Shown one piece after another: positions 10,581 to 32,590 of a stretch of DNA of 32,831 nt. The number at the start of each line of letters is the position of its first letter. Within the stretch, counting starts at the first letter, position 1. Source of the DNA: Ignavibacteriota bacterium (lineage in GTDB: Bacteria; Bacteroidota; Ignavibacteria; Ignavibacteriales; Melioribacteraceae); contig PAAX01000004.1 of assembly GCA_002698995.1 (NCBI GenBank), positions 1-32,831 on the forward strand, read 5' to 3'. The position numbers and the translations under genes were made by a program. A model generated the notes under the pieces. It did no database searches and was not told where the DNA came from. It saw only the letters and a list, made by a program, of their open reading frames with translations.

Positions 10581-13562
10581 CTAAAATCCTATACCAAGTG
10601 TGAAGAAAATCTGCCTTGGAATGTTTCTGTAAATTCTATAAGGAGCGGTTATGTAACTTAAACGGGAAGGATCTCCTCTTTCAGCAACTCCCGCATCAGC
10701 AATTGTAATACCGTCTTCAACCCAAAGTCTAACGTCATCACTTGTTGACATTGGAGTGATCCATTTATTATCAAATAAATTCATAACTCTTAAACCAAGA
10801 ATCAGTTTGATATCGCTTAACATAATTTCTTTAGTAACATTAAGATCAACACTTGATTCAATTGGATATCTTCTATTATAAACAACATCTCTTAAAGTAA
10901 AATCAGTAACATAAGTAAATGGTGTTCCCGATTGAGCTGTGTAAGTCATACTAACTATTAAATTTTCCAAAGGATTAACACCGAATATTGAGAAACCTTC
11001 ATCTTCTCTAAAGAAATATTGAACTAGTGCCCTGAAGTTATGAGTTCTATCCCAAGGAGCTAGAAATTCTCCAGTGTAATCCCTTGTTGAATATCCTCTT
11101 GTATCATCGGGATAAACAATTGATGCACCATAATTACCGCTTGTAGTTTGAGATAAAGAATAACTGAATCTATAAGACCAGTTTTGAATTCTGATTGTTT
11201 CGAATGTTAATTCAAGTCCAACAGTAGAACCGAAAGAATTATTAGCAAAAGACCAATAATAGTAGAGAGGTGAATTATCACTTGCAAATCCCGCAAATTG
11301 ATTTCTACTTCCGGTAAAACTTGCAATATTTTGTCTGCCTATCTGAGTAGTTCTATCATTATAATAAAGCACCATATCCAAACGATGATTATCATCAACC
11401 TGCTGCTGCAGACCAAATTCATAATTAATAGTTTTTTTAGGATCAAGATTAGGATTTCCTAAACCCTGCCAGCCTACCCAAGTTTTTTTCGATAGCGCTT
11501 GAGAAAAAATCGGCATTGAAGCGAAGTGTCCGTATTGAAATCTAAAAGCAGTGCTTTCACCAATTGGGAATGAAATACCTAAACGTGGAAGTAGAATATA
11601 TTTCCATTCAGAGTTCTCTGTTAAAGGACTTCCCAAAGTTCCCGGTCCTTCTGTTCCGGGATACAAAATATTAAATCTATCAAGCGGAACTCCGGTTTGA
11701 AAATTATACGCTTCCACTCTCATACCCACATTTGCAATCATTCCTTCATACTCCATTTTGTCTTGGATATAAAAAGAATAATTAATAGGATATGCCTGGT
11801 AGAAATCTGCAAATCCGTTTCTAGCTACATAAGAGTTTGCCTGGAAACTTGAATTTACACCGTTGTTAAAAAGATCCCAGTAGTAAAATTGAAAACCGGC
11901 TTTTACCAAATGAGTGTTGGAGATTTGATTTGTATAATCTCCTTTTATTCCGAAGTTTTCGGTTCTGCTGTCTTGGTAATAATTTGTACTAAATCCGAAT
12001 GGAGCGCGGAAAAAATCTTTTTCCCACCAGCTTCCTTCTCTAAGTACTGTTCCGGTTGGATCACTTGAAGAGTCAACTCTATCAACTTCAAGTCCATAAC
12101 CTGCCAAATACTTAAATGGAATTTCGTACTGTTCCTGCTGATGCGAAAGATTTAATTGAAAGAATGAGTTATTATTGATTGTATAAACCCATTCTAAGGA
12201 TTGTGCAATTGTTTGCTCTTCCCTAACCGGATCGACAGTTACAAGATATTTTGTTGAAACTCCGGGTGGTGTAAAAGCTAAACCTGACCATCTAATATCA
12301 TCAGAACCCGACCAAATACCTCCGGTGTAGCTTTGGTAACTTCCCATCAATCTAATTTTATGATCTTTAATAGGATTATAAGTTACATTAAGAATGTAGT
12401 TCTGTAATTCCTGAACTTTTTCCGGTGTCGGTAGTCTGGTTGGATTTCTTTTATATTCACCGGAGAGATAAAATTTCAAGAAGTTTGGATCTTTGCCTAA
12501 TGGTCCGCCAAAACCAAAAAGATATCGGGTATACGCATATTGAGTATAATCATAAACTCCTAAAACATTATCATCGCTTGGTTCATGATTTTCTACCCAA
12601 ACTGAATGTGCCCATGCAATTTCTCTGTTAACAAGTTCATCATAAAGCTGCGGGTTACTATTTTTGATTCCGGCATACCTAACATCTAGTTTTAATTCTT
12701 TAATAATATCATCGCGTCTTGCCATCCAATCAGCAAGTTCTCCCCACTTCTGCCATTCGTAATTATTTTTTGAATAGATATAATCACCGTAATGATACTG
12801 CCCTGGAGGTCTGTACTCAACTCTAAATTCACCGTTAAATTTAGGTCCCCCTTCTTTCAAAACTACGTTAACAACACCGGCTTGTGCATTTCCATACTCT
12901 GCAGAAAATCCGCCTGTTATCAATTGAACCTGCTGAACACCAAGAGGATTTACATCATACTTCCATGAATTGTCTGCTTTTTCAGTATCGAAAGAACCGG
13001 GAGCACTTGTATTTGAATTAGACTGGACCAAACCATTTATTTGAAAGCTGACTTCGTAAGAACCGGAACCTCTTACAGAGTAATTACCGGTAGCGTTTTT
13101 CTGAAATCCCGCCGATAAATCGAGTGTTCCTCTTAAGCCTTCTATAGGAGCAGCTTTTATCTGCTCGGCTTCAATATTAGTAGCTGTTGAAGTTCGATCT
13201 TTTACTACTGCCGGTTTTGCAGCGGTAACAGTAACCTGTCCAATTTCGATTGTTTCGTCGGTTAAGGTAAACTCAATATTAGTTGTTCTGTCAATAAAGA
13301 GAGTTACATCAGTTTGAGTTACCTTTCCGTAACCAACCATACTTGCGGTCACATTATATCTTCCTGGAGGAATATTTAATATTATAAACTTCCCATCGAT
13401 ATCTGTTGCCGCACCATAATTTGTTCCATTAATAATCACATTTGCACCGATTAACGGTTCATTTGTTTGTTTATCCTTTACAACTCCAACTAATTTGCCG
13501 TTTTGAGCATAAAGAATTGAACTAAACAAAATTGTTAATATGATTAAAGTTAGCTTTCTCAT
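10581..13562 (-). CDS. TonB-dependent receptor with carboxypeptidase-regulatory-like N-terminal domain
   Basis: A 993-residue outer-membrane transporter. Signal peptide 1-19 (ILYAQ). A CarboxypepD_reg-like domain covers about 22-108 (GKLVGVVKDKQTNEPLIGA, GKFIILNIPPGRYNVTASMV). A plug domain covers about 115-235 (SVRGSGSYEVSFQINGLV, VQLITGGFSAEYGNAQAGVV), and a long beta-barrel follows to the C-terminal ...QIFFTLGIGF ending in Phe. This is the architecture of energised importers of glycans or other large ligands in the Bacteroidetes/Chlorobi group. Unlike SusC loci, the next gene is not a SusD homolog but the large secreted fibronectin-like protein, only 12-19 bp away. In this setting it probably imports fragments made by the secreted GHL10 and phosphodiester glycosidase proteins (inference). 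Confidence 0.9.
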   Translation of the reverse strand: MRKLTLIILTILFSSILYAQNGKLVGVVKDKQTNEPLIGANVIINGTNYGAATDIDGKFIILNIPPGRYNVTASMVGYGKVTQTDVTLFIDRTTNIEFTLTDETIEIGQVTVTAAKPAVVKDRTSTATNIEAEQIKAAPIEGLRGTLDLSAGFQKNATGNYSVRGSGSYEVSFQINGLVQSNSNTSAPGSFDTEKADNSWKYDVNPLGVQQVQLITGGFSAEYGNAQAGVVNVVLKEGGPKFNGEFRVEYRPPGQYHYGDYIYSKNNYEWQKWGELADWMARRDDIIKELKLDVRYAGIKNSNPQLYDELVNREIAWAHSVWVENHEPSDDNVLGVYDYTQYAYTRYLFGFGGPLGKDPNFLKFYLSGEYKRNPTRLPTPEKVQELQNYILNVTYNPIKDHKIRLMGSYQSYTGGIWSGSDDIRWSGLAFTPPGVSTKYLVTVDPVREEQTIAQSLEWVYTINNNSFFQLNLSHQQEQYEIPFKYLAGYGLEVDRVDSSSDPTGTVLREGSWWEKDFFRAPFGFSTNYYQDSRTENFGIKGDYTNQISNTHLVKAGFQFYYWDLFNNGVNSSFQANSYVARNGFADFYQAYPINYSFYIQDKMEYEGMIANVGMRVEAYNFQTGVPLDRFNILYPGTEGPGTLGSPLTENSEWKYILLPRLGISFPIGESTAFRFQYGHFASMPIFSQALSKKTWVGWQGLGNPNLDPKKTINYEFGLQQQVDDNHRLDMVLYYNDRTTQIGRQNIASFTGSRNQFAGFASDNSPLYYYWSFANNSFGSTVGLELTFETIRIQNWSYRFSYSLSQTTSGNYGASIVYPDDTRGYSTRDYTGEFLAPWDRTHNFRALVQYFFREDEGFSIFGVNPLENLIVSMTYTAQSGTPFTYVTDFTLRDVVYNRRYPIESSVDLNVTKEIMLSDIKLILGLRVMNLFDNKWITPMSTSDDVRLWVEDGITIADAGVAERGDPSRLSYITAPYRIYRNIPRQIFFTLGIGF

Positions 13563-23343: not shown

Positions 23344-23650
23344 TGTAATCCCGGTTTAAGGTGGTTATGACATCAATACCGGAATCCAAAAACATGAATG
23401 AAAGATACCGGTAGTGCTTTCGCAAATCGGTATGACAATTAAAAAAAGATGTCATTCCGGTTTATCAATGCTTTTTATTGATAATACCGGAATCCAAAAA
23501 CATGAATGGAAGTTACCGGTATTGCTTTTGCTAATCGGTATGACAAACTAAAAAAAGATGTCATTCCGGTTTAATGCGGTTTTAGCATTAATACCGGAAT
23601 CTAAAGAAGGAAATTGAGTTACTGGTATTAATTTGTAAGCCGGTACGACA
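23344..23650. repeat. Array of three REP-like palindromic units (TGTCATTCCGGT...ATCGGTATGACA)
   Basis: Unit A is 23344-23437, unit B 23450-23545 and unit C 23559-23650 (94, 96 and 92 bp). Linkers are 12 and 13 bp, attaaaaaaaga and aactaaaaaaaga. Each unit holds two smaller hairpins: CCGGTTTa..ATACCGG in the first half and ACCGGTA..TCGGTAT in the second. The outer ends form an inverted repeat TGTCATtCCGGT/ATCGGTATGACA. The array fills the 334-bp gap between the phosphohexomutase and HAD genes, and no gene is present in it. A half-unit recurs in the hairpin at 32626-32662. Confidence 0.9.
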
Positions 23651-27813: not shown

Positions 27814-27850
27814 TTTCTCGATTCGTACTAAACACTCACTCGAAATAACA
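27814..27850. repeat. Degenerate left-type REP arm (L1) of the TCGAAATGACA array
   Basis: tttctcgattcg..actcactcgaaataaca matches the L arm of the array with a few changes. It has no recognisable R arm upstream, and 27762-27813 holds only AT-rich sequence with small hairpins (atcact-ttt-agtgat). A 13-bp linker, gagatgtaacctt, separates it from the next unit; that linker closely resembles gaaatgtaaactt at 28407-28419. Confidence 0.7.
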
Positions 27851-27903
27851 GAGATGTAACCTTTGTCATTTCGACGAACGAAGTGAGGAGAAATCTTAGA
27901 AGT

Positions 27904-28206
27904 ATGAAATGAGAACATAATTATTACATTTACATCATTACCAACTGGAATAACAAAGTTCTTTATATAGGAATGACAAACAATCTTAAAAGAAGAATTT
28001 ATGAACATAAGAATAAACTGATTGAAGGCTTTTCAAAGAAATATAATTTAACAAAGCTTGTTTACTTTGAAGAAACTAATGATGTTTTCTCTGCGATAAC
28101 AAGAGAAAAGGAACTTAAGAAATGGAGACGAGAGAAGAAAAATACTTTAATAGAAATGATGAATAAAGATTGGAAGGATTTAAGCGAAGAGTACAATTTT
28201 TATTGA
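27904..28206 (+). pseudogene. GIY-YIG nuclease-family gene with in-frame TGA at codon 3
   Basis: Reading from ATG 27904 gives M-K-stop(TGA 27910-27912)-EHNYYIYIITNWNNKVLYIG, then MTNNLKRRIYEHKNKL and onward to 28206, 100 codons in all. That is the full length and fold of small single-domain GIY-YIG proteins: YYIYI and VLYIG as the two half-motifs, RRIYEH with the conserved Arg, and REKELKKWRREKK with the conserved Glu. Between TGA and ATG 27973 no ATG, GTG or TTG is available. Starting at ATG 27973 removes both half-motifs and leaves 77 residues. The gene is thus either recently inactivated, started at a non-canonical codon such as ATT, read through, or affected by a sequence error. It lies 6 bp after the R1 repeat arm. 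Confidence 0.7.
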
Positions 28207-28220
28207 TTATTAATTATAGA

Positions 28221-28274
28221 ATCGTCCTTTAGATAAATTTAACGGTATAAGTCTTAAATCGTTTAGAGGATGAT
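28221..28274 (+). other. Structured 3' tail between GIY-YIG gene and repeat arm L2
   Basis: ATCGTCCTTTA (28221-28231) can pair with TAGAGGATGAT (28264-28274) with two mismatches or wobbles, enclosing 32 nt that holds further AT-rich complementarity (AAATTTAA, TTAAATC). It lies between the nuclease stop codon and arm L2, so it could be a terminator-like or recognition structure of the element. Confidence 0.4.
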
Positions 28275-28322
28275 AAGATTTCTCGTCGTAAACTCCTCGA
28301 AATGACATGTCGTAACGGAAAA

Positions 28323-28406
28323 TATCATTTCGATGAACGAAGTGAGGAGAAATCCTAAAATCGGCAGAGAGAAGATTTCTCAGTCACAGGCTCCTTCGAA
28401 ATGACA
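28323..28406. repeat. 84-bp REP-like palindrome R2-L3
   Basis: The R arm (tatcatttcgatgaacgaag...gaggagaaatccta) and the L arm (gatttctcagtcacaggctccttcgaaatgaca) surround a short centre. Linkers are 15 bp on the left and 13 bp on the right. The 334-bp gap 28207-28540 holds the tail of the GIY-YIG unit, this palindrome and the next, and no other gene. Confidence 0.85.
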
Positions 28407-28419
28407 GAAATGTAAACTT

Positions 28420-28503
28420 TGTCGTTTCGACGAACGGAGTGAGGAGAAATCTTAATCTTAGCAAAGAGTATATTATTCAGTTGCAGACTCACTCGAAATG
28501 ACA
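28420..28503. repeat. 84-bp REP-like palindrome R3-L4
   Basis: It starts TGTCGTTTCGACGAACGGAG and ends CACTCGAAATGACA, exactly the same length as R2-L3. The centre (agcaaagagtatattattcag) differs from that of R2-L3 while the arms are conserved. It ends 37 bp before the GH94 start codon, so in mRNA it could act as a stabilising or attenuating hairpin. Confidence 0.85.
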
Positions 28504-30949: not shown

Positions 30950-32590
30950 ATGAAAAAACTAGTTTTAGTTTTCTTGTTGGCGCTATCAATAAGTGCACAA
31001 TCAATAACTTGGAATGAGATAACCGGCAATTATATACTCCCCGGCTCAGTTCAAGTATTTGAAGGAACGCGTGTTAGTCCTGCTTTGAAAATCTGGTATA
31101 TCAAAGTTGATATGAGCGATCCCGATATTGCAATTAGACCATATATAAGCGGTACAAATAAAATTGTTCCTACTTTCACAAATGATGTTGGGGCTTATGC
31201 TGCTGTAAACGGTGGATTTTTCGGCGGTTCAACATCCTATTCAGCGGTTGTTTATCCTAATGAAGTTAAGGCCGAAAATGTTCCAGCTGTGACAAGAAAC
31301 AGTCAATCCTATCCGCTGATAAGAAGTTTCTTTGGAATGGATTTCAACAGAAATCTATCTGTCGATTGGATATATCATTTCGGAAATAATGTTGAAGATA
31401 TTTATACATTTGAAGAACCACTTCCTTATATAAATAATGATCCGACTCCCAAATCGGCACCAAGCAAATCAAACGGAAACCCATACGACAGTTTATTAGT
31501 TGGAATCGGGGGTGCTCCAACCTTGGTTAAAAATGGTACGGTTAACGTGACTTATAATGAAGAAATTATGTGGGGATCGGGAGTAGGAAACACAAACAGC
31601 GATCCGAGAACTGCAGTCGGTTATACTGCAGATAATCATGTAATATTATTAACTGCCGATGGTCGTCAACTTGGAAGCGCCGGGGTGAGTTTACCTGAAC
31701 TAGCTCAAATAATGATTGATTTGGGATGCGTAGAAGCTATGAATCTTGACGGCGGCGGCTCAACACAAATGGCTGTCGGAAATTCTTACGTTAATACTCC
31801 TTCTGAACAAAGAGCAGTGCCAACAATTTTAGCTGTCGTACATTCGGATTCATTAAATCTCCCTAAAGAACCAAAGTTTGAGAGAATAATCGATACCGGA
31901 GATCCTGATGCAGAAGAAGGAGGAAGCGGATGGTTTGCAACTGCAAATTCCGGTTTCTACGGAGGGACACCTTCTCTTCTTAATGCAATTGGTGACGGAA
32001 GTAATTACTACAGATTTCATGCTAATCTTCCTGCCGAAGCTGAATATGAGGTTTACGGATGGTGGGTCGCTTCAAGCAATAGAGCAAGCGATACTCCTTT
32101 TATCATTTCTCATAAAGATGGTTTAGATACTGTAAGAATGAATCAAACTATAAATAACGGACAGTGGGTTTATGTAGGTACATATACCTTTGCTGGAAAT
32201 GAATCAGAGTTTGTTGAAGTTTCAAATGCAGCTACAACCAACAACTACGTTGTTGCTGATGCAGTCAGATATTTGACTTACGATGATATTACCGTTGATG
32301 TAAAAAATGAATTAGCTTCTTATCCCTCTAGTTTTTTATTGAGACAGAATTACCCTAATCCATTTAATCCAACGACAAGTATTGAGTATTTGGTACCTAG
32401 TAATGAGTACGTTAGTTTAAAAGTTTATGATATTCTCGGGAATGAAATAACAACTTTGGTAAATGAACAGAAATCTGCTGGAAATTATAGTATAGAATTT
32501 AATGCTGAAATGCTTTCGAGTGGAATCTATATTATCACAATGAATTCCGGTGGATATACACAATCTATAAAAGCTCAGTTGATAAAATAA
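30950..32590 (+). CDS. Secreted phosphodiester glycosidase-like (NAGPA domain) protein with golvesin-like domain and T9SS tail
   Basis: A 546-residue secreted protein. Signal peptide 1-17 (ALSISAQ). A NAGPA/DUF2233 (PF09992) domain covers about 25-305, with AAVNGGFFGG, GAPTLVKNG, DPRTAVGYTADNHVILLTAD and MNLDGGGSTQMAV. This family includes the uncovering enzyme that removes GlcNAc from GlcNAc-1-P diesters, so cleavage of a sugar-1-phosphodiester is the best guess. A golvesin-like domain covers about 310-445 (IIDTGDPDAEEGGSGW, YEVYGWWVASSNRA, NGQWVYVGTYTF, VVADAVRYL). The T9SS type A tail is about 460-546 (LLRQNYPNPFNPTTSIEY). The golvesin plus T9SS ending is shared with the GHL10 proteins of the opposite block, linking the two halves. 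It is the last gene before a terminator-like hairpin at 32626. Confidence 0.88.
   Translation: MKKLVLVFLLALSISAQSITWNEITGNYILPGSVQVFEGTRVSPALKIWYIKVDMSDPDIAIRPYISGTNKIVPTFTNDVGAYAAVNGGFFGGSTSYSAVVYPNEVKAENVPAVTRNSQSYPLIRSFFGMDFNRNLSVDWIYHFGNNVEDIYTFEEPLPYINNDPTPKSAPSKSNGNPYDSLLVGIGGAPTLVKNGTVNVTYNEEIMWGSGVGNTNSDPRTAVGYTADNHVILLTADGRQLGSAGVSLPELAQIMIDLGCVEAMNLDGGGSTQMAVGNSYVNTPSEQRAVPTILAVVHSDSLNLPKEPKFERIIDTGDPDAEEGGSGWFATANSGFYGGTPSLLNAIGDGSNYYRFHANLPAEAEYEVYGWWVASSNRASDTPFIISHKDGLDTVRMNQTINNGQWVYVGTYTFAGNESEFVEVSNAATTNNYVVADAVRYLTYDDITVDVKNELASYPSSFLLRQNYPNPFNPTTSIEYLVPSNEYVSLKVYDILGNEITTLVNEQKSAGNYSIEFNAEMLSSGIYIITMNSGGYTQSIKAQLIK

Follow-up and report, generated by a model that had tools for sequence, protein, structure and literature searches.

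The CGTC-tagged REPs are, in the part of the published survey drawn on here, small palindromes with a CGTC or TGTC tag, an AT-starting stem of 8 to 9 bp, a loop of 4 to 5 and a short tail that is mostly CCA, and they are arranged mostly as HH dimers (tags outside), with some intragenic units (Di Nocera et al. 2013, PMC3733652). The same part of the survey places them in five phyla, with hosts that include alphaproteobacteria, Chlorobi and Bacteroidetes, counts dRS3 of Neisseria and RPE-4 and RPE-6 of Rickettsia among their members, and states that they "apparently lack a dedicated transposase" (PMC3733652).

Several other systems resemble the one described below in some of their features. The REP/RAYT systems (REPINs, REPtrons) likewise consist of small palindrome pairs with terminal tags, gene-bearing copies beside gene-free ones, but the RAYTs are HUH tyrosine transposases, whereas the enzyme here is a GIY-YIG nuclease. 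The palindromic elements of Rickettsia sit in frame inside coding genes. Free-standing GIY-YIG homing endonucleases share with the present unit a catalytic domain and insertion at preferred sites; the unit here, however, has palindromic ends of its own and gene-free derivatives. Finally, the Ssn proteins, reportedly the subject of a study by Chenal et al. in Nature Communications in 2025, are said to be small, site-specific GIY-YIG single-stranded nucleases paired with repeats. The repeat on which the Neisseria member acts reportedly has hundreds of copies, and the study is said to be about cleavage specificity and transformation.

Here we describe an array from an Ignavibacteriota bacterium in which a GIY-YIG gene lies between inverted REP-like repeats. 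We propose, with a probability of roughly 70%, that such a REP pair and its own GIY-YIG nuclease form a mobile unit comparable to REP/RAYT, with gene-free pairs alongside.

Results

A GIY-YIG gene between inverted REP-like repeats

The array lies at 27840-28503 of the window, by which we mean the whole stretch of 32,831 nucleotides that was analyzed, between two genes that we take to be GH38 and GH94, names given at the first reading of the sequence. Its order is L1, 13 bp, R1-gene-L2, 15 bp, R2-L3 (84 bp), 13 bp and R3-L4 (84 bp). The features are as follows.

27840-27850, minus strand: L1 arm (TCGAAATAACA), a solitary outer half-repeat (sequence)
27864-27895, plus strand: R1 REP-like repeat with outward TGTC tag, upstream end of the gene-bearing unit
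27913-28206, plus strand: GIY-YIG nuclease frame, 97 codons (Pfam match, AlphaFold2 model)
28277-28307, minus strand: L2 REP-like repeat with outward tag, downstream end of the gene-bearing unit
28323-28406, no strand: R2-L3 unit without gene, 84 bp (sequence, folding)
28420-28503, no strand: R3-L4 unit without gene, 84 bp (sequence, folding)
23404-23601, no strand: second, gene-free REP array of a different type, with TGTCATTCCGG and CGGTATGACA ends (REP calls in the window)

Rereading the sequence bore out the layout given in the initial annotation, both in its arms, linkers (13, 15 and 13 bp) and two units of 84 bp and in its placing of the arms as inverted ends of a gene-bearing unit at 27864-28307. 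The 11-bp arms of that account are present, but they are the outer part of longer REP-like halves (27864-27895 and 28277-28307) and not whole repeats. With up to three mismatches allowed, TGTCATTTCGANGAACGRAGTGAGGAGAAATC matches three times in the window, each time inside the array; 100 shuffles yielded 0.00 on average. Chance was rejected as an explanation on the basis of these shuffles and of the control ORFs described below. Folded on themselves as single-stranded DNA, the unit at 28323-28406 reaches a z of -2.88, with 0 of 200 shuffles equally stable, and that at 28420-28503 a z of -1.87, with 9 of 200. The two halves that flank the window gene, each folded alone, are no better than shuffles (34 of 200 and 191 of 200 as stable), and scans for promoters and terminators did not exceed shuffles. 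The second array, at 23404-23601, resembles in type the repeats that flank the GIY-YIG gene of locus L003, and an isolated REP call at 10733-10761 looks like chance.

The window arms read TGTC-ATTTC..GAAAT, and the repeats have GAAATC at the end, followed by TT or CT. They have the TGTC tag and the AT stem start in common with the CGTC REPs, but their stem is of 5 bases, their loop is long and their tail is not CCA, which departs from the stem, loop and tail of the definition, and we therefore call them CGTC-like. Arms of several relatives (L058, L076, L079, L086 and L087, for example), by comparison, have the tag, a stem of at least 8 bp, the CCA tail and the tags-outside dimer.

The product of the open frame carries the GIY-YIG domain claimed for it (PF01541, 61.1 bits against a cut-off of 22.6), and Y7, Y18, G20, R28 and E65, which we take to be the conserved catalytic residues of GIY-YIG nucleases, are invariant among 39 aligned sequences. 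An AlphaFold2 model of the window protein has a mean pLDDT of 94.6, and a fold search of the PDB returned UPF0213 (1zg2) as the sole match at E 0.001 or better. The proposed GIY-YIG ORF is thus present, but ahead of the domain it offers no ATG that could serve as a start: after the ATG at 27904 comes a single codon, AAA, and then an in-frame TGA at 27910. The frame is open from 27913 to 28206. Because this ATG is cut off by a TGA one codon on, the window copy is probably decaying or has an unusual start, and, to judge from its frame, it is probably no longer properly expressed. Phage records searched with the window protein at 1e-5 gave no match, and phage carriage of the gene was rejected on that ground.

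The enclosing gap in relatives is short and free of the array

If the array had entered an existing gap, as the initial annotation supposed, orthologous GH38-GH94 gaps could be expected to include empty sites, and this is what we find: in all 13 of the 13 relatives that keep the pair, the gap is 14-109 bp long and without array, as against 782 bp in the window by the same measure. These 13 come from 29 relatives' GH94 loci after exclusion of 15 without a GH38 match and of L111, which has a fragmentary, distant match; L101 is counted although its GH38 match is only partial. On the gap sequences the array is best read as an insertion. Because the GH38 part is only about 44-60% identical between the window and the 13 relatives, exact insertion ends cannot be drawn in them. 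The gap of L099, otherwise short, contains another repeat-like stretch (gtgctcttggtgactcagtgg..gcactaagacactcag).

REP bracketing is concentrated in one GIY-YIG clade

A profile, A1, was made from four home-genome genes picked once their flanks had been seen, which makes the repeat-flanked side the point of entry into the clade. From 529 relatives matched by A1, the best 80, taken on protein similarity only and with titles from many phyla, were then scored with a REP caller defined by YGTC[A/G]T, five stem bases, a partner within about 50 bp and then C. This 5-base-stem caller replaced an earlier one with 8-bp stems that missed short-stem types such as that of the window; it was set after 20 flanks had been read and is therefore tuned on part of the same loci. 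Ten of the 80 loci were left out because they lacked 300 bp on both sides. Among the 70 counted, an outward REP lies within 300 bp upstream in 52, downstream in 55, on both sides in 44 and on any side in 65, which leaves 26 loci without the two-sided arrangement and 5 without any called REP in that range. At the two-sided loci the median gap between the nearest upstream repeat and the domain is 34 bp, and that between the stop and the nearest downstream repeat is 19 bp; REP density is 5.5 per kb near the nuclease genes versus 0.18 far from them.

Control ORFs, scored with the same caller, bear on the possibility that intergenic REPs simply gather, perhaps as terminators, wherever a small intergenic gene stands. 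The cited part of the survey describes REPs as mostly intergenic, as such neutral company would have it (PMC3733652), but against the 44 of 70 nuclease loci only 1 of 562 control ORFs of at least 100 aa has outward REPs on both sides (34 on either side), and when the controls are restricted to non-overlapping ORFs at a distance of more than 1 kb, the counts are 0 of 284 at that length and 1 of 171 at 50-130 aa. Lower-scoring GIY-YIG genes, moreover, are mostly without REPs, and we regard chance company as very improbable.

The dependence on score emerges from a wider set of 179 hits, obtained after 16 of 195 distinct hits had been dropped for want of 300-bp flanks; this set includes hits in the 80 loci and is therefore not independent of them. 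At least one outward REP is found at 105 of 114 hits of at least 120 bits (63 of them on both sides), 13 of 38 at 90-120 bits, 4 of 15 at 70-90, 2 of 5 at 50-70 and 1 of 7 below; the 9 remaining best-scoring homologs have no outward REP within 300 bp. Ten named genomes contain 18 further copies, mostly lower-scoring, and an outward REP accompanies only 4 of them. REP bracketing is therefore concentrated in one GIY-YIG clade, and bracketing as a general habit of GIY-YIG genes was rejected because lower-scoring genes mostly lack REPs. The expectation that small GIY-YIG genes lie between R and L arms is true for the clade, across phyla, with an arm sequence that differs by lineage. The counter-case named with it, homologs showing no association, is seen among GIY-YIG genes outside the clade and, within the 114 best homologs, in 9.

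Individual loci illustrate the arrangement. L163 has three tandem REP-gene-REP units, and among 5 of 29 matching plasmid-collection records inspected by eye, 4 carry palindromes of a similar kind that flank the gene on both sides (Neisseria gonorrhoeae, Sinorhizobium meliloti, Shinella and Sinorhizobium sp. K101), the Rhizobium tumorigenes record having one downstream only. The gonococcal homolog is 53.2% identical over 79% of the query, with CGTCATTCCCGC..GCGGGAATC repeats on both sides; we presume that it is the published Ssn gene and that its repeats are dRS3/NTS. In L128, from Sinorhizobium meliloti, the stretch right after the nuclease gene, together with a REP, recurs upstream, perhaps as the remains of a second unit.

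A search of 97 relatives' genomes located the nuclease in 57, with internal stops in 18 of 125 matches. These counts weigh on a different account, in which nuclease and repeats have a settled host function, limiting or steering DNA uptake or recombination, and the bracketing exists for that reason and not for movement. The two-sided repeats of the gonococcal homolog agree with such a function, as does the behavior of Ssn, which is reported to cleave repeats in single-stranded DNA and to modulate transformation, but the patchy distribution, the internal stops and the variable presence and orientation described below look selfish. We consider a host function in place of movement unlikely; the host-function and selfish-element readings can, however, both be true together.

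Repeat type follows nuclease lineage

The two REPs of a unit have their 5-base stem in common in 34 of 73 cases, compared with a shuffled mean of 13.0 and a shuffled maximum of 24. When loci are labeled by stem type or absence of a REP, the labels require 56 changes on the nuclease tree, versus a shuffled mean of 101.8 and 0 of 200 shuffles as low, on a tree that derives from a short alignment and to which near relatives contribute. Repeat stem type thus follows the nuclease tree, save for ATCCC, ATCTC and ATGCT, which do not cluster on it (ATCTC and ATGCT are rare). Across the 97 relatives, REP and nuclease counts correlate with a rho of 0.54 for a pattern of two stem types and with relatedness left in. 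Exceptions are 4 genomes with at least 20 REPs but no nuclease at threshold and 7 with the nuclease and at most 4 REPs.

Other GIY-YIG genes and repeats of the home genome

The home genome has 15 GIY-YIG matches, of which four, those behind A1, belong to the window clade; a fifth gene, at a tRNA gene, matches A1 weakly. An outward YGTC-AT palindrome lies upstream of three of the four clade members, and downstream as well in two of these, each with a different sequence. The TGTCATTTCGA arms are carried by the window gene alone among these members; among the other three, L001 has a different repeat and the remaining two have YGTC-AT palindromes of another sequence, in one of them called upstream only. 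The repeat around L001 (C33), CTCGATACGCTCGCAAGCTCGC.., is not scored by the caller and may represent yet another tag type.

The exact window-type repeat occurs in 20 copies in the home genome, and a reversed control pattern in 0. Outside the window it forms two gene-free, tags-outside dimers (L281 461-525 and L282 441-517), both in frame and at the same place in two different genes, in which they resemble the Rickettsia palindromic elements; the portion of the literature examined gives no nuclease partner for the latter. The C-terminal part of the L281 and L282 genes resembles that of the gene at window positions 30950-32590, which is without insert, and this shared part (NPFNPTT motif) is presumably a type IX secretion sorting domain.

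The caller found no REP at any of the home genome's four Y1_Tnp (Y1/HUH) transposase loci, and mobilization by HUH/RAYT in this genome was rejected for that reason. Several small GIY-YIG genes (L005, L007, L008, L010, L011 and L015, on C14, C16, C36, C16, C15 and C17) lie at tRNA genes, the tRNAs being Cys, Leu (two in tandem), Met, Ser and Arg, and several of these ORFs adjoin partial tRNA copies, as in homing into tRNA genes.

Presence and orientation vary at an orthologous site

In Bradyrhizobium, best matches in 146 genomes returned 30 loci for one intergenic site, one being the query locus itself; the preceding gene is presumably groEL. The nuclease gene is forward at 8 of these loci, reversed at 5 and absent from 17. 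With tags read at up to one mismatch each, the 17 gene-free loci include one dimer (L242), five single hairpins with both outward tags and three without tag. At L229 and L242, neighboring sequence recurs in a longer inverted copy that borders the hairpin or dimer, as if by fold-back synthesis. The forward gene-bearing alleles L221, L222, L226 and L239 have in common, as judged by eye, some 30 promoter-like bases outside the upstream REP, and the gene-bearing unit may therefore extend past the REP.

A tree of the flanks comprises 25 rows, L224, L235, L245, L248 and L250 having been left out because they have no usable right flank. On this tree the sisters L234 and L249 (100/99) carry the gene in opposite orientations, and the gene-bearing L230 falls within a 100/100 clade alongside the gene-free L231 and L232. 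The latter two retain a GGAATG(A/G)CG scrap and, by their sequence, may be losses. The three states require 8 changes compared with a shuffled mean of 9.9 (23 of 200 shuffles as low), on a tree in which 11 of 22 inner branches are unresolved and gains and losses are not polarized. A target-site duplication sought by eye at this site was not found. In Winogradskyella, the unit is present in the query only: the other 29 loci (66 genomes with a match) are without a REP within 900 bp, and the next gene aligns within 168 bp in 26 of these 29.

The claim of mobility finds backing in this varying presence and orientation at orthologous sites of both genera, but neither cleavage nor a target-site duplication nor a transposition event was seen. 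Among the lines of evidence for movement, the Bradyrhizobium intergenic site is the strongest.

The same site also bears on whether the nuclease is a guest and not the mover. REPs would in that case be older and spread by other means, and a free-standing GIY-YIG homing endonuclease would cut REP dimers and be copied into them by repair. Identity to the query unit is 84-95% for forward units (query excluded) and 70-74% for reversed ones, so that the cassette differs while the site is constant, as expected of a homing parasite. The existence of REP-rich genomes without the gene, and the homing-like habit of small home-genome GIY-YIG genes at tRNA genes with partial tRNA copies, point the same way. 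Gene-free dimers, however, also look like insertions, even inside genes; the one other enzyme type tested, Y1/HUH, is untied to REPs (0 of 4 home-genome loci); and stem type follows the nuclease tree. We hold a homing guest to be possible but somewhat unlikely, and the one point that separates it from a mobile unit of REPs and nuclease is whether gene-free pairs, too, are moved by the nuclease.

Discussion

Taken with the association, the variation at orthologous sites supports the suggestion that an autonomous element stands beside non-autonomous, ends-only copies, with a GIY-YIG enzyme in place of a RAYT. If the REP pair and its nuclease do form a mobile unit, that unit would be an inverted pair of REP-like repeats, each with its YGTC tag outside, an AT-starting stem and its tail inwards, in which the nuclease gene replaces the spacer. 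The nuclease most likely recognizes its own REP hairpin, probably in single-stranded form, at a fork or during uptake, and cuts it. Repair templated by another copy, with the REPs as homology arms, would then copy the unit, and the same repair could swap or invert the cassette between the REPs or collapse the unit to one hairpin; recombination between the short direct GGAAT repeats of two hairpins, for example, would leave a single hairpin with two tags. Gene-free dimers would be the non-autonomous copies. We infer REP recognition, cleavage, the copying route and movement of the unit from the arrangement of genes and repeats, and single-stranded cutting is suggested by analogy with the Ssn family.

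Because its enzyme is not of the HUH type, this system would work like REP/RAYT without being a member of it. With Ssn, which reportedly cleaves single-stranded DNA sequence-specifically at the cognate repeat, it has small GIY-YIG proteins and repeats in common. If the Ssn family does, as reported, pair nucleases with repeats, the pairing is not wholly new; what is added here would be the bracketed unit, its limitation to one clade, its correspondence to CGTC REPs and the evidence of movement at the level of single sites. Literature searches joining GIY-YIG with "repetitive extragenic palindromic" or with dRS3 found no such paper within a scope that left out bioRxiv and most subscription papers, and broader searches gave no paper joining GIY-YIG nucleases and REPs among the matches listed.

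No enzyme for the CGTC REPs is reported in the cited part of their survey (PMC3733652), whereas the repeats described here bracket a GIY-YIG gene, and we regard the clade as a candidate partner for these repeats. We would give even odds to the wider proposal that the clade supplies the mobilizing enzyme for the CGTC REP superfamily, dRS3 and RPE-4/6 among them. This would make a second REP system of independent origin. Its hairpin pairs would be spread through a site-specific nuclease together with the repair machinery of the host instead of an HUH transposase, and every lineage of the nuclease would have a hairpin of its own.

The repeat family is widespread, and the clade provides a likely partner for it. 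A nuclease that lies inside the repeat pair, is matched to it by lineage and varies between genomes makes the question of an enzyme for CGTC REPs directly testable. If our proposal is true, REP-like systems would have arisen with at least two unrelated enzymes, and the spread of REPs would be linked to cleavage and repair.
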